NCBI GenBank assembly: GCA_012522335.1
Contig: JAAYKP010000155.1
Location: 1 to 43,984 of the forward strand
DNA length: 43,984 nucleotides
Direction of reading: 5' to 3'
Origin: Bacillota bacterium
GTDB taxonomy: Bacteria; Bacillota; Dethiobacteria; Dethiobacterales; Dethiobacteraceae
Positions 16,062 to 26,882 of this stretch are shown in pieces (positions within the stretch are counted from its first letter, which is position 1; every line of letters starts with the position of its first letter). The position numbers and the translations under genes are program-made. The notes beneath the pieces were generated by a model that was not told the DNA's origin, searched no databases, and saw only the letters and a program-made list of their open reading frames with translations.

Positions 16062-16137
16062 GAGCCATTAGCTCAGTCGGTAGAGCACCTGACTTTTAAT
16101 CAGGGTGTCCCGCGTTCGAGTCGCGGATGGCTCACCA
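16062..16137 (+). tRNA. tRNA-Lys (anticodon TTT)
   Basis: 76 bases with encoded CCA. Acceptor GAGCCAT/ATGGCTC, D arm GCTC/GAGC, anticodon stem CCTGA/TCAGG around CTTTTAA (anticodon TTT), T arm CCGCG-TTCGAGT-CGCGG. All stems pair. Confidence 0.97.
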
Positions 16138-16141
16138 TTAC

Positions 16142-16216
16142 GGCCCCTTGGTCAAGCGGTTAAGACACCGCCCTTTCACGGCGGTAACGCGGGTTCGAGT
16201 CCCGCAGGGGTCACCA
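16142..16216 (+). tRNA. tRNA-Glu (anticodon TTC)
   Basis: 75 bases with encoded CCA, four bases after tRNA-Lys. Acceptor GGCCCCT/AGGGGTC, anticodon stem CCGCC/GGCGG around CTTTCAC (anticodon TTC), T arm GCGGG-TTCGAGT-CCCGC. Confidence 0.97.
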
Positions 16217-16412: not shown

Positions 16413-17987
16413 ATGGATATAGAACAGATGAATGACGCTGCGGAACAGGCAGCGCCGCAGAGTACGGAAAACCTGGCTCAGCCTTTCATAAACAAGCTAA
16501 AAAAAATAGCTGCGGAGGGGCTAAAAGTACTAAACAACTTTGCTCAGCAGAGTAAAGAATGGCTGACAAAGCTGACCCGGCAGCTCAAAAGTTTCTTTGT
16601 TAACTGCCTGGAGCACTGCCGCACCCTTAGTGCTCCGGTAAAATACAGCGCTTTGGCAGTGCTGCTGATAATTTCTCTGATTACTGCCGGCAGCGTTTAT
16701 GCTTATTATGATTCCTTTACCTATGTTGTCTATTTAGACGGCGAAGAAGTGGGCTATGTGGAATCAGAAACCGTGATTCCGGAGTTTGCAGCGGCTTTAC
16801 AGCAGCAGCAGAGTGAAGCCGCAGGGGTAGAGCTGGTTACTGAACAGGAATTAAAGGTGGTACGTGAACAGCGCAAAGGTGTTACGGAAGATGAAGAAGC
16901 CGTAAAAAATAAATTGCGCGAGCAGCTTAAATTTGGCGTCCACGCCTACATGCTGACGATCAATGATAAGCCTGTCATGCCGCTGGCCAGTATTGCTGAT
17001 TATCAACAAGTCATTGACCAATTAAAGGATACATATGTTCCTGAGCAAAAAAATGCTGTAGTGCAGACTGTAGTTCTCAATGATAAACTGGAAGCAAAGT
17101 TAACCCTTGTTGATCCGTCTGAAATTTGCAGTGTGGATAAAGCCTTAGAGGTACTCTGTTACGGTACAAATCAGCGGAAAACATATCTTGTTTCCCGCGG
17201 TGATTCTCTTTGGTCCATCGCCGTAAAAAATAACCTTTCTGTCACAGACATTCGCAATGCTAATCCGCAGCTGGCTGAATCAGACAAATTAATGCCTGGT
17301 GACTGCCTGAATTTAGTTGTCGTCGAGCCGCTGGTCTGTGTGCGGGTGACCCAGGAAGTTGTGGAAACAGAGGCGATACCTTTTACCACAACAACAAAAG
17401 AAGACAGCAGCATGTACAAAGGTACCAGCAAAGTGCTGCAGGACGGCAAAGAAGGTAAAAAAGAAGTAACTTACCGGGTTACTTTAGAGAATGGTAAGCA
17501 GGTTAAAAAAGAGGCTCTGAAGGAAAAAGTGCTGGCAGAGCCGGTGGAGAAAATTGTTGCTAAAGGCACAAAGGCTGTTCCCAAACCGGCAGCCGTAGGT
17601 GGCGGCGGCAGCGGGACAGGCCGTTTCCTCTGGCCGGTGGCCGGGCGCGGTACAATTACTTCCCGCTATGGCTACCGCTGGGGCAGATTCCATCGCGGAC
17701 TCGATATCGGTACACCTACCGGCACAGCCATTTTAGCCGCTGACAGCGGCAGAGTCATCCAGTCCGGTTGGTCCGGTGCCTATGGCATCTTAGTAACAAT
17801 TGATCATGGTAACGGTTTTGTCACGAAATACGCGCACAATTCAGCGACATTGGTTACAGTGGGGCAGTATGTACAAAAAGGGCAGCAAATTGCCCGCTCC
17901 GGCAGTACCGGCAATTCTACCGGTCCCCACTTACATTTTGAAATAATTAAAAACGGTTCCAATGTCAATCCTCTGTCATATCTCTAA
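16413..17987 (+). CDS. Membrane-anchored LysM-G5-M23 peptidoglycan endopeptidase
   Basis: 524 residues. Order: cytoplasmic amphipathic N-terminus (1-76), one transmembrane helix (about 78-99), a poorly conserved extracellular region with Gln-rich stretch, a LysM peptidoglycan-binding module (about 257-303, TYLVSRGDSLWSIAVKNN), a G5 domain (about 305-385, with EVVETEAIPFTT and VTYRVTLENGKQVKKEAL), a Gly-rich linker and a C-terminal M23 domain (about 410-524). The zinc ligands are intact: HRGLDIG (HxxxD) and HLHFE. It should cleave peptide crossbridges outside the cell. The AGGTGAT ribosome site precedes the ATG. It lies upstream of walRK, and M23 hydrolases are typical WalR targets elsewhere; I see no WalR box in front of this gene, only after it. 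Confidence 0.93.
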   Translation: MDIEQMNDAAEQAAPQSTENLAQPFINKLKKIAAEGLKVLNNFAQQSKEWLTKLTRQLKSFFVNCLEHCRTLSAPVKYSALAVLLIISLITAGSVYAYYDSFTYVVYLDGEEVGYVESETVIPEFAAALQQQQSEAAGVELVTEQELKVVREQRKGVTEDEEAVKNKLREQLKFGVHAYMLTINDKPVMPLASIADYQQVIDQLKDTYVPEQKNAVVQTVVLNDKLEAKLTLVDPSEICSVDKALEVLCYGTNQRKTYLVSRGDSLWSIAVKNNLSVTDIRNANPQLAESDKLMPGDCLNLVVVEPLVCVRVTQEVVETEAIPFTTTTKEDSSMYKGTSKVLQDGKEGKKEVTYRVTLENGKQVKKEALKEKVLAEPVEKIVAKGTKAVPKPAAVGGGGSGTGRFLWPVAGRGTITSRYGYRWGRFHRGLDIGTPTGTAILAADSGRVIQSGWSGAYGILVTIDHGNGFVTKYAHNSATLVTVGQYVQKGQQIARSGSTGNSTGPHLHFEIIKNGSNVNPLSYL

Positions 17988-17993
17988 AGCAGA

Positions 17994-18023
17994 ACGAGCA
18001 CAATCTTGTGCTCGTTTTTTTTT
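17994..18023 (+). terminator. Terminator after the M23 gene
   Basis: ACGAGCACAA / TTGTGCTCGT (10 bp stem, 2-base spacer that will open to a small loop) then nine T. Strong intrinsic terminator. Confidence 0.92.
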
Positions 18024-18072
18024 CGGCTGTTATGATGTTCCGGCGGCCTGTGTTACATAATAATAAAGTCAC

Positions 18073-18105
18073 TGTAACACGCATGTAATATTCACCCGCT
18101 ATAAT
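18073..18105 (+). promoter_or_regulatory. WalR box plus -10 element
   Basis: TGTAAC-ACGCA-TGTAAT (18073-18089) fits the published WalR consensus TGTWAH-N5-TGTWAH at every position. Ten bases later comes a perfect TATAAT (18100-18105); the box covers the -35 region, where WalR acts as activator. Transcription would begin near 18112. walR itself is encoded 1.2 kb downstream. Confidence 0.7.
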
Positions 18106-18111
18106 AAAGAC

Positions 18112-18173
18112 AAGGTTTGACCCCCTCTTTAATATATATTTTTTTACAACGTGGCGCACCACGTTATTTTTTT
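18112..18173 (+). ncRNA. Predicted short WalR-controlled transcript or attenuated leader
   Basis: From the predicted start after TATAAT the RNA would be about 62 nt and end at the strong hairpin at 18148-18173. No open frame of note lies in it. It may be a small RNA, or the leader of the secreted peptidase gene that starts at 18270, with the hairpin as attenuator. Predicted only. Confidence 0.4.
18148..18173 (+). terminator. Terminator or attenuator hairpin before the peptidase gene
   Basis: AACGTGG / CCACGTT (7 bp stem, CGCA loop), then A and seven T. It stands only about 36 bases after the predicted start site of the WalR-box promoter. Confidence 0.82.
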
Positions 18174-18269
18174 GCCTGAACATGGCTGTGCTGACATATA
18201 TTACCAATGCGAGGGCAGGCAAAACCTGTTACAATATTTAAGTATACTGTATAGGGGGAGGGGCTGCCG

Positions 18270-19136
18270 GTGCAGACGCAAAGCAGAACAAAACAGACAC
18301 TGCAGATTACTGCTCTCTGCTGCATACTGCTGGTAATTTTACCTGCTTTACCGGCAGCAGCGCAGAGCACGCTGCGCTATTTATCCTCCCTGGCGGTACG
18401 CAGGCATTTTCGTCACTGGCTGACGCAGGAGTCTGCCTATTTTCAACTACGCTATACGGAAAGTGATCAGGAGCTGGCAGCTTGGCTGGGTAGGCAGGCC
18501 GATGAGGCGGTGGAGCAGGTGACGCAGCTGCTGCCGTATACACCAACAGCAAAACCATGGCTGGTAATAGCTCCGCGGCAGACCGTGCTGCGGCAAACTT
18601 TTGGCTGGGGAGAAAATACAGGTGCCCTGGGGGTTTATGTGGCGGATACCATCATTATCCTTTCTCCTCGCGCCTGGGAATGGGAACATCCTTTACTCCG
18701 GGAGGCAGTTTTTGCCCGGCAGGGTCCCCTTGTACATGAATATACCCATTATCTGCTGGACCAAAGGGCGCAGGGTAACTACCCGCGCTGGTTTAGTGAA
18801 GGGTTAGCCCAGTATATAGAGTATCAGGTTTTGGGCCATGAATGGGTAGAAGCCGGCAGTTCCCTGGCCAATCCTCTCTATTCTCAGCAGGAACTGACGG
18901 ATGATTTTGATCAGCTGCCTAATCAGGCCCTTGCTTATCGTCAGTCTTTTAGTATGGTGAGCTTTCTGGCTGCCTTACAGGGTGACGCCGCCCTCAATAA
19001 TTTAATTACGCTGCTGGGCGGGGGAGAAGATTTTAATACTGCCCTAGAACAGATTTATGGACTGTCTCCCCAGGCTTTGCGAACGGCCTGGGAAAACTGG
19101 ATAGAGACTGATTTGCGTTGGCAGCAGACAGGATAG
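18270..19136 (+). CDS. Secreted peptidase MA-like (gluzincin) metalloprotease
   Basis: 288 residues from GTG 18270, after the G-rich ribosome site GGGGGAGGGG (18254-18263). N-terminal signal peptide: basic start, hydrophobic core ITALCCILLVILPALPA and probable cleavage after AAAQ (about 31). Zinc-binding motif HEYTH (156-160) with the glutamate ligand in FSEGLAQYIEY (E177) gives a gluzincin site as in peptidase MA-like (PF13485-type) proteins. The C-terminus repeats the common ...YRQSFSMVSFL...GLSPQALRTAWENWI pattern. It should act outside the membrane; substrate unknown. Its neighbours, an M23 hydrolase and WalRK, suggest an envelope role. Confidence 0.82.
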   Translation: MQTQSRTKQTLQITALCCILLVILPALPAAAQSTLRYLSSLAVRRHFRHWLTQESAYFQLRYTESDQELAAWLGRQADEAVEQVTQLLPYTPTAKPWLVIAPRQTVLRQTFGWGENTGALGVYVADTIIILSPRAWEWEHPLLREAVFARQGPLVHEYTHYLLDQRAQGNYPRWFSEGLAQYIEYQVLGHEWVEAGSSLANPLYSQQELTDDFDQLPNQALAYRQSFSMVSFLAALQGDAALNNLITLLGGGEDFNTALEQIYGLSPQALRTAWENWIETDLRWQQTG

Positions 19137-19332: not shown

Positions 19333-20031
19333 GTGGCGCGCGGTACAATTCTGGTTGTAGACGACGAAAAACCCATTGCGGAAATATTGCGTTACCATTT
19401 AATCCAGGAAGGTTATGAGGTAAGTCTGGCTTTTGACGGCGAAGACGCGCTCAAGCAGGCACAAAGTATGCAGCCTGATCTGATACTGCTGGATATTATG
19501 CTGCCGAAAAAAGATGGCTTTGAAGTCTGCCGGGAAATCCGCCTTTTTAGTAATGTACCTATTATCATGCTCACGGCCAAGGATACAGAATTGGACAAGG
19601 TACTGGGCCTGGAGCTGGGCGCTGATGATTATGTAACAAAACCTTTTTCTGCGCGGGAAGTTTTAGCCCGGGTCAAAGCCAATCTGCGCCGGACTGCACA
19701 GCAGCAGGAAATGCAGACGGAAATTCTCAGCTGTCAGGATCTGCAGGTTGATACCGGACGCATGGAAGTGCGGCAGGCCGGACAGCTGGTGGAACTCACC
19801 TACCGGGAATATTTACTTTTAACCTATTTGATGCGCCATGCCGGTTATGTGATTAATCGGGAAACTTTATTGGAAAAAGTCTGGGGTTATGACTTTTATG
19901 GTGACGAGAGAACTGTTGATGTGACCATCCGCCGCCTGCGGGAAAAAATAGAACCGAAACCAAGTGAACCGCGTTATATTCTCACCAAACGGGGTGTAGG
20001 TTACTATATGGGGAATAACAGCAATGCTTAA
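19333..20031 (+). CDS. walR: WalR (YycF) response regulator
   Basis: 232 residues from GTG 19333 with GGGGTGAT as ribosome site. Receiver domain ILVVDDEKPIAEILRYHL with phosphoacceptor D54 in LILLDIMLP, IIMLTAK and DDYVTKPF; C-terminal OmpR-type winged helix with LTYREYLLLTYLMRHAGYVINRETLLEKVWGYDFYGDERTVDVTIRRLREKIE. WalR governs cell-wall hydrolase genes and is essential in many low-GC Gram-positives. Its 8-base overlap with walK and the yycH-yycI-walJ-htrA genes after it identify it securely. Confidence 0.96.
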   Translation: MARGTILVVDDEKPIAEILRYHLIQEGYEVSLAFDGEDALKQAQSMQPDLILLDIMLPKKDGFEVCREIRLFSNVPIIMLTAKDTELDKVLGLELGADDYVTKPFSAREVLARVKANLRRTAQQQEMQTEILSCQDLQVDTGRMEVRQAGQLVELTYREYLLLTYLMRHAGYVINRETLLEKVWGYDFYGDERTVDVTIRRLREKIEPKPSEPRYILTKRGVGYYMGNNSNA

Positions 20032-21838
20032 AAGTATACAATGGAAGCTTGTCCTCATCTATTCTTTATTAATTTTGTTTGCCATGCAGTTTTTTGCCGT
20101 TTTCCTGACGCAGTCACTGGAGGATTACTATGTAACAAGTTTTGCCCAGAATTTAGAATCACAGGGACTGCTCCTGGTCAACTTTTTAGAACGCTATCTG
20201 GCTGCGGACGAAATCGGCAGTACAACGGGAGATATTGACAGTTTAGTCCTGGAATACTCCCGCTACGCCGGCGCCGCCGAGATCATGGTGCTGGATAATT
20301 TCGGCCGCGTCATCTCGGCTACCAGGCAGAGCGCTGAACTGCGGGGTCAGCGTATTATTCAGGAGGAAATTACGCATGCCCTGACGGGTACCCGCAGTGA
20401 AGCAACCCGTTTAGATCCGGAAACTAAAGAGCGCATGAAATACCTGGCGCTGCCTGTCCGGGTCGGCAACAGAAATTTAGGTGTAGTTTATTTAATCGGC
20501 TCCCTGGAGCCTCTTTATGCTACTTTACGTGAAATTCAGCTGATCTTTTTAACCGGCGCTTTGTTAGTCATGGGAGTGACTGTCCTGCTCGGCTTTGTGC
20601 TGGCACAAACCATTACCGGGCCGATTCAGGAAGTTACCTCGAAGGCCGAGCAAATCGCCCATGGTGATTATCGGCAGCGTATCACCATTCATGCCGATGA
20701 CGAAATCGGCCGCTTAGGCGAGATGTTTAATTATTTGTCCCGACAGCTGGAAGCAACCTTACAGGAGATTTCCTCAGAAAAAGGTAAAATAGAGGCAATT
20801 CTAAATCATATGACGGACGGGATTATTGCTTTAGGCAGTGACGGGAAGATCTTACACCTCAACCCCTCTGCCAAACGCTTACTGGGCTTACAGGCCGCTG
20901 CCGAACCGGCGGTGGAGATTTTAGCGCCGCTGATTATGCCGGTCAATTTAGCTGAATTATTGACAACAGGACAGCAAACAAGTCAGGAAATAACGCTGGC
21001 ACCGGAGCAGCGCCATCTGCACGTTAATTATGTGCCTTTTCAGATGCAGGAACCGGAGCCTGATTATTATACAGGTATTCTCATTGTGTTACATGATGTG
21101 ACACAGGAGCGGGAGCTTATGCGCCGGCAGCGTGAGTTTGTGGCCAATGTATCCCATGAACTGCGTACACCGCTCACCACCATTAAAAGTTATACCGAGG
21201 CACTGGTTGACGGGGCCAGGCTAGAACCGGAGCTGTGCCTCTCCTTTTTGACTACCATCGAGAAAGAAACGGAGCGCATGGTTCGTTTGGTCAAAGACCT
21301 GTTAGTTTTGTCACAGCTAGACTTTCAGCAGGTTGGTTGGCATAAAGACCAGTATGCTTTAGATGAGCTGATTACGGAGGTAGTGGCGGAGCTGAAGCTG
21401 AAATATAAAGAGACAGCGCGGCAGATCACCGTCTCCCTGCCGGTGGAGCCGGTAATTGCGTATATCGACCGCGACAAGATTAAACAAGTACTGCTGAATA
21501 TTATTCATAATGCCTATAAATACACGGCTGAGGGCGGGCAGATCACCATCAGCCTTGAGCAGCAGCGGGAGCAGGCGGTAATGCAGGTGAGCGATGACGG
21601 CATCGGTATTCCCGCTGCCGATGTAGAGCGAGTCTTTGAACGTTTCTACCGGGTGGATAAAAATCGTTCCCGTGCCTACGGGGGTACCGGCCTGGGCTTA
21701 CCGATAGCCCGCGAGCTGGTGGCGGCACACGGCGGTACAATCAGTCTCAGCAGTGAACTGCAGCAGGGCACGACAGTGACCGTTACGCTGCCCCTGCCGC
21801 AGGTGAGGGAGGAGGACGAAGGATGCGTGAGCGCCTAA
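20024..21838 (+). CDS. walK: WalK (YycG) sensor histidine kinase
   Basis: 604 residues. TM1 (about 9-29), extracellular sensor domain (about 30-171), TM2 (172-194), HAMP (about 195-248), cytoplasmic PAS (about 255-360), HisKA with phosphoacceptor H378 in ANVSHELRTPLTT, and HATPase with LLNIIHNAYKYT (N box), VSDDGIGIPAADVERVFERFYR and GGTGLGLPIA. This is the complete WalK architecture, close to the 611 residues of Bacillus. It phosphorylates WalR in response to the state of peptidoglycan metabolism (established for the family). It overlaps walR by 8 and yycH by 16 bases. Confidence 0.96.
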   Translation: MLKSIQWKLVLIYSLLILFAMQFFAVFLTQSLEDYYVTSFAQNLESQGLLLVNFLERYLAADEIGSTTGDIDSLVLEYSRYAGAAEIMVLDNFGRVISATRQSAELRGQRIIQEEITHALTGTRSEATRLDPETKERMKYLALPVRVGNRNLGVVYLIGSLEPLYATLREIQLIFLTGALLVMGVTVLLGFVLAQTITGPIQEVTSKAEQIAHGDYRQRITIHADDEIGRLGEMFNYLSRQLEATLQEISSEKGKIEAILNHMTDGIIALGSDGKILHLNPSAKRLLGLQAAAEPAVEILAPLIMPVNLAELLTTGQQTSQEITLAPEQRHLHVNYVPFQMQEPEPDYYTGILIVLHDVTQERELMRRQREFVANVSHELRTPLTTIKSYTEALVDGARLEPELCLSFLTTIEKETERMVRLVKDLLVLSQLDFQQVGWHKDQYALDELITEVVAELKLKYKETARQITVSLPVEPVIAYIDRDKIKQVLLNIIHNAYKYTAEGGQITISLEQQREQAVMQVSDDGIGIPAADVERVFERFYRVDKNRSRAYGGTGLGLPIARELVAAHGGTISLSSELQQGTTVTVTLPLPQVREEDEGCVSA

Positions 21839-26855: not shown

Positions 26856-26882
26856 AAAGTTAAGTGCAAGGGGGTTAGAGCA

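Follow-up and report, generated by a model that had tools for sequence, protein, structure and literature searches.

The WalRK two-component system is essential in many Firmicutes. For Bacillus subtilis, the accessible portions of published work give the WalR consensus as TGTWAH-N5-TGTWAH (PMC9210968; also PMC6624279). One RNA of S. aureus, SprX, reportedly acts on walR without being WalR-controlled, as far as the available text of that source goes (PMC9266662). Other small RNAs are known as outputs of two-component systems. In the sections accessible to us, csRNA1-5 of streptococci are described as CiaRH-controlled, with sequences that can base-pair to start codons and ribosome binding sites (PMC4507080, PMC7602753), and LhrC of Listeria as LisRK-controlled and induced by cell envelope stress, with CU-rich (UCCC) motifs that bind the ribosome binding site (PMC4132741, PMC7602753). 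Here we analysed a stretch of 43,984 nucleotides of bacterial DNA (the window) that carries a wal locus. Upstream of walRK it contains one member of a family of conserved small RNAs under a WalR-type promoter, and this family is wider than the original prediction, made from the window alone, could see; that its members are transcribed is inferred.

The original prediction had recognised a perfect WalR box, a TATAAT downstream of it and a strong intrinsic terminator shortly after, and all three were recovered in our analysis (Table 1). The box fits TGTWAH-N5-TGTWAH exactly and is the single exact match in the window. TATAAT follows 10 bp downstream, and the terminator consists of the hairpin AACGTGG-CGCA-CCACGTT at 18148-18165, followed by ATTTTTTT. 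Taken on this single sequence, the box is only moderately surprising because 11 of 100 dinucleotide shuffles of the window contained at least one match (mean 0.11). In the whole 2.0-Mb genome, we counted 20 matches to the box pattern versus 9 for the pattern read backwards. The hairpin alone is unremarkable, with a fold z-score of -1.3. In the centroid fold of about 18112-18173, an unpaired GUUUGACCCCCUCUU stands at the start, followed by the A/U-rich linker, and the terminator comes last. The most conserved part of the unit, 13 nt at 18117-18129, had been overlooked before.

Table 1. Features of the window around the predicted small RNA gene; positions count from the first letter of the window.
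Feature	Position	Strand	Basis or remark
M23 peptidase gene with G5 and LysM	16413		Pfam
Upstream third half-site TGTTAC	18051..18056	+	22 bp upstream of the box's first half-site
WalR-type box TGTAAC-ACGCA-TGTAAT	18073..18089	+	Motif scan; at most one mismatch in 104/105 copies
-10 element TATAAT, 10 bp past the box	18100..18105	+	Exact in 63/105 copies, one off in 29/105
Predicted small RNA, ~62 nt	18112..18173	+	Start inferred 7 nt past the -10; sequence only, no transcript data
Near-invariant single-stranded C-rich core TTGACCCCCTCTT, putative seed	18117..18129	+	Alignment and pattern search
A/U-rich linker	18130..18147	+	Family alignment
Intrinsic terminator: 7-bp stem, 4-nt loop, T tract	18148..18173	+	Hairpin in 98/105 copies
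Extended -10-like block TGTTACAAT, inferred separate gluzincin promoter	18227..18235	+	Family alignment, by eye
G-rich gluzincin gene leader AGGGGGAGGGG, candidate site of pairing	18253..18263	+	Prediction only
Gluzincin-like peptidase gene (Peptidase_MA_2), candidate target	18270..19136	+	Pfam
walR, inferred regulator	19333..20031	+	OmpR-type response regulator; adjoins Cache_WalK kinase, yycH, yycI
walK, kinase with Cache_WalK	20024..21838	+	Pfam
yycH	21823		Pfam
yycI	23132		Pfam
Metallo-hydrolase gene	26004		
Unusual G-run leader AAGGGGGTTAG preceding the HtrA-like gene (26883), candidate site of pairing	26868..26878	+	Prediction only
HtrA-like protease gene with PDZ	26883		

A DNA search with 17985-18275 found matches in 53 of 99 relatives. 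The 30 loci that were aligned, i.e., the best-scoring of these matches, all share the box, TATAAT, the near-invariant core, an A/T-rich stretch and a hairpin whose sequence varies. We then derived from the core a pattern that permitted one mismatch and demanded neither box nor hairpin; it matched in 78 of the 97 class genomes (48 of the 57 good-quality ones), while the backwards pattern gave 3 matches. Copies in G002, G005 and G090 escape this pattern yet appear in the alignment, and the copy in G011 carries one change in the core. Several genomes hold at least two copies. From 110 distinct core matches, 105 were retained as copies; L217, L203, L208, L216 and the second match of L187 were dropped because they lacked box or hairpin, so the retained copies are partly selected on the features afterwards counted in them. 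L053 was kept despite the absence of a scored hairpin.

A perfect box stands in the expected place in 89 of the 105 copies, versus 7 of 2,100 dinucleotide-shuffled upstream stretches; with up to one mismatch, the numbers are 104 versus 58 of 2,100. The spacing between box and -10 is 10 bp in 98 copies, and a TGTNAY half-site lies about 22 bp upstream of the box in 84. Hairpin and T tract together pass the threshold in 98 copies and in 34 of 2,100 shuffles, and the terminator hairpins of the copies represent 84 different 5' arms. The 13-nt core is exact in 101 copies; the 105 had themselves been retrieved with this core, one mismatch being allowed. What the copies preserve is the geometry of the promoter, the head of the RNA and the structure of the terminator, while the terminator sequence is free. 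This is the pattern of a small RNA gene, and the unit has what such a gene requires, a promoter and a terminator of its own that are conserved apart from the neighbouring genes. Its conservation lifts the unit far above chance, and it is not private to the window's genome. The original prediction had named conservation of box, -10 and hairpin in relatives as a check, and the three are indeed kept as a unit in most of the 105 copies. Judged from comparative sequence data, it is practically certain that the conserved terminated unit at 18073-18173 is real. In addition, inspection by eye of L050, a locus of a distant relative outside the 105, showed that the same gap contains ACCCCCTCTT and a hairpin, together with a degenerate form of the box.

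The unit also occurs beyond the class. When box and ACCCCCTCTT were jointly required, 19 of 398 phylum genomes matched and the control gave 0 matches. Assignment of the DNA to the Bacillota is inferred from YycH/YycI and from the relative JAUYEF010000054.1. Thirteen of these genomes belong to the class and six lie outside it (G101, G147, G185; G307, G398, G419). All six outside copies sit just upstream of walR (walRK), and 3 of 3 genomes searched from the class of G185 match. The core alone matched in 37 of 398 genomes of the phylum scan; outside the class these matches are nearly all chance-like by eye, with G185 as the exception. Viral contigs yielded one exact core match, which we read as chance because box and hairpin are missing, and the plasmids searched for the unit gave no match. 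By genomic position, the unit is linked to walRK in three lineages. An RNA of roughly 60 nt under a WalR box, as originally proposed, is hence supported by a unit conserved in most class genomes and, upstream of walRK, in two further lineages. An extra short hairpin, AAAGG...CCTTT, was seen by eye just 5' of the core in the three outside copies that belong to family f84 (L222, L223 and L221).

Gene order around the copies was compared at 117 loci tested with the window's proteins, a set in which the chance matches are still counted and at least one locus appears twice (L215/L220). At 48 loci a co-directional walR follows the copy, and in 34 of these the M23 gene is also found upstream. Most loci without a downstream walR belong to family f3, whose copies lie elsewhere, often before birA-like genes (names by eye). 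As far as position can tell, copies have been relocated away from walRK in one family. Copies of this displaced sort, at L038, L039, L047, L049 and elsewhere in f3/f5, lie between valS-like and birA-like genes; some f3/f5 copies are near DUF554-like and SleB-like genes (names by eye). Several genomes have two to four copies. In 80 of the 105 copies the next open frame downstream shares the strand of the copy; in 22 it is encoded on the opposite strand, and for 3 none was seen. In the window itself, tRNA-Lys (16062-16137) and tRNA-Glu (16142-16216) lie between dnaB and the M23 gene.

These arrangements bear on the other option left by the original prediction, namely that the hairpin is an attenuator. 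Box-driven transcription would then meet the terminator, and regulated read-through would feed walRK in the ancestral position or the gluzincin gene here. At the 48 loci with co-directional walR downstream, partial read-through into walRK cannot be excluded. The 22 copies with an opposite-strand neighbour, however, make attenuation unlikely, since no leader or attenuator can explain them. Some copies occur without the gluzincin gene altogether, and in the window this gene has its own promoter-like block, the second conserved one, which separates it from the hairpin. Moreover, the most conserved part is single-stranded, and inspection by eye showed no conserved way in which it could pair with the terminator arms instead. 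An attenuator should have a co-directional gene in all copies, which does not hold here, as well as an antiterminator fold, of which no conserved form was seen by eye. Regulated read-through is hence a quite improbable reading, and as an account of gluzincin expression it could not be upheld. Hardly to be credited is a short translated leader peptide, UUG-ACC-CCC-UCU-UAA, encoded by the core. Its frame closes at UAA where AA follows the core, but the next base is T in 64 of 105 copies and A in 41, so that the frame is broken in many, and there is too little space after the predicted start for a ribosome binding site.

Given a small RNA, its regulator might still be a different one. We infer WalR because of the motif, the position beside walRK and the contrast with the PhoP-type boxes at pstS in relatives. 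The box upstream of the promoter has the TGTWAH-N5-TGTWAH form that membership in the WalR regulon demands. WalR homologues (E <= 1e-60) are present in 97 of 97 class genomes, and paralogues pass the same cut-off. As paralogous response regulators exist, another could bind the box, and the same small RNA would then be driven by another OmpR/PhoB-type regulator, e.g., a PhoP-like paralogue. Paralogues at about 55% identity occur in most class genomes, and in the family with copies away from walRK the box lies off WalR. Repeats of 11 bp are read by several members of the OmpR/PhoB family, phosphate regulators included, and we therefore inspected nine pstS-type loci of relatives out of 16 listed. 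TTWACA-N5-TTWACA was found on the coding strand in six of the nine and a forward TGTNAH pair in none; the repeats are of the TTAACA type in L101, L102, L103 and L104 and of the TTTACA type in L099 and L100. These PhoP-type direct repeats have the opposite orientation to the WalR-type box, so that a place in the phosphate regulon, for which box type and orientation should be pstS-like, is not indicated. TIGR02136 had no match in the window's genome nor in several other copy-bearing genomes, and the ancestral position adjoins walRK in three lineages. Control by another family member thus seems unlikely, though it deserves to be kept in mind. WalR remains the best candidate regulator, unproven, and its control of the RNA is highly probable but inferred, without binding or transcript data. 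The regulon-wide test was weak: perfect boxes elsewhere in the window's genome outlined no clear cell-wall regulon, and there is no support at this level because most of them fall inside genes and one lies before a VanW-like gene. The latter, TGTTAC-N5-TGTTAC, is 93 bp upstream of that gene (by eye; L091, site at 721), which is possibly a further WalR target.

The C-run of the RNA is complementary to G-rich ribosome binding sites, and its pairing with such sites as a seed is the likeliest mechanism, although the targets can be listed only tentatively. Among the window's 38 leaders, those of htrA and gluzincin gave the strongest predicted duplexes; the prediction used no accessibility term, and starts were picked by a simple rule. 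GGGGG occurs within 25 nt before the start in 2 of the 38 leaders, only those of htrA and gluzincin. In the window's family the same run precedes htrA in 14 of 16 cases, gluzincin in 9 of 13, and the starts of seven other wal-locus genes at 16 family loci in 6 of 108. Outside the family, none of five htrA leaders carried GGGGG, and walR leaders had it in 13 of 32 loci, with the duplicates L253/L212 and L255/L199 counted. Ten-base walR leader pairings were found in L255/L199, L036 and L041. Since orthologous loci share descent, leader counts are not independent. Long core complements were not enriched in 20 genomes and were rarer than the backwards control, which itself looks like a ribosome binding site. 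Most of the 20 long-complement places inspected lie inside genes; three are just before a plausible start (L148, L152, L159), with no gene in common. These target tests covered the window, 20 wal-locus stretches and selected loci only. Hfq (PF17209) is encoded in 37 of 39 genomes, the window's included, and there are no data on Hfq binding of the RNA. In the absence of target data, we are inclined to believe that the RNA pairs in trans with ribosome binding sites. The tentative candidates, all inferred, are htrA and gluzincin in the window's family and walR in other lineages.

Taken together, we consider it likely that the locus is the gene for a trans-acting, WalR-controlled small RNA of about 62 nt that uses a single-stranded C-rich seed to bind G-rich ribosome binding sites. 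WalR would bind 11-bp-phased half-sites that end 10 bp before TATAAT and drive transcription from about 18112. The RNA would open with the unpaired GUUUGACCCCCUCUU, continue with the A/U-rich linker and close with the intrinsic terminator. Pairing of its C-rich segment with G-rich ribosome binding sites would block translation, possibly assisted by Hfq. Likely targets may include the HtrA-like protease and the wal-locus gluzincin gene in the window's family and walR itself elsewhere. Transcription, WalR as regulator, the direction of control, pairing and targets are all inferred. We may further speculate, and no more than that, that the RNA is an ancient arm of WalRK, located beside walRK in at least three lineages, and that it masks ribosome binding sites and thereby exerts feedback on the wal locus. 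Its targets would have shifted by lineage (walR; htrA and gluzincin here), and the RNA would be free-standing and multicopy in one large family. A conserved small RNA under a WalR box would provide WalRK with an output at the level of translation, perhaps a feedback loop, and the 13-nt core together with the box can serve to recognise the RNA in relatives that are in culture.

The original prediction knew of no WalR-dependent small RNA at this locus, and our search of the open-access literature, with subscription papers and preprints outside its scope, found none described. In the available part of an S. aureus WalR ChIP-seq paper, "small RNA" appears once, in the reference list, and "sRNA" is absent (PMC10746227). 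In Rfam 15, the window stretch matched no family at gathering score, and relaxing the cut-off to E = 5 added nothing beyond chance. This includes any sequence match to csRNA or LhrC, although we did not check that every such family is contained in Rfam.

In RsaE/RoxS and FsrA, which are under other regulators, the comparison extends to the proposed mode of action. There, according to the accessible text, a C-rich unpaired motif blocks translation in low-GC Gram-positives (PMC4132741), yet the window stretch fits no Rfam family at gathering score. The TGTWAH-N5-TGTWAH box beside walRK, yycH and yycI resembles the WalR regulon, whose described members, in the portions at hand, are in contrast protein genes (PMC9210968, PMC6624279). 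The csRNAs resemble the RNA proposed here in being under an OmpR-type response regulator, from a system linked to the cell envelope, and in having several copies, as far as their available descriptions reach (PMC4507080, PMC7602753). They are, however, 87-151 nt long versus about 62 nt here, and the present RNA has the terminator as its single hairpin, a different core and a WalR-type box, and it sits beside walRK. LhrC, in the parts of the reports that we could draw on, is under two-component control, multicopy and bound through CU-rich motifs to the ribosome binding site, as is proposed for the C-rich segment here (PMC4132741, PMC7602753). With 111-114 nt and three redundant motifs in loops and linker, it differs from the single unpaired segment found here, and it has a different regulator. 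While membership in either group is not shown, the best reading by analogy is that the RNA beside walRK would work like csRNA or LhrC.
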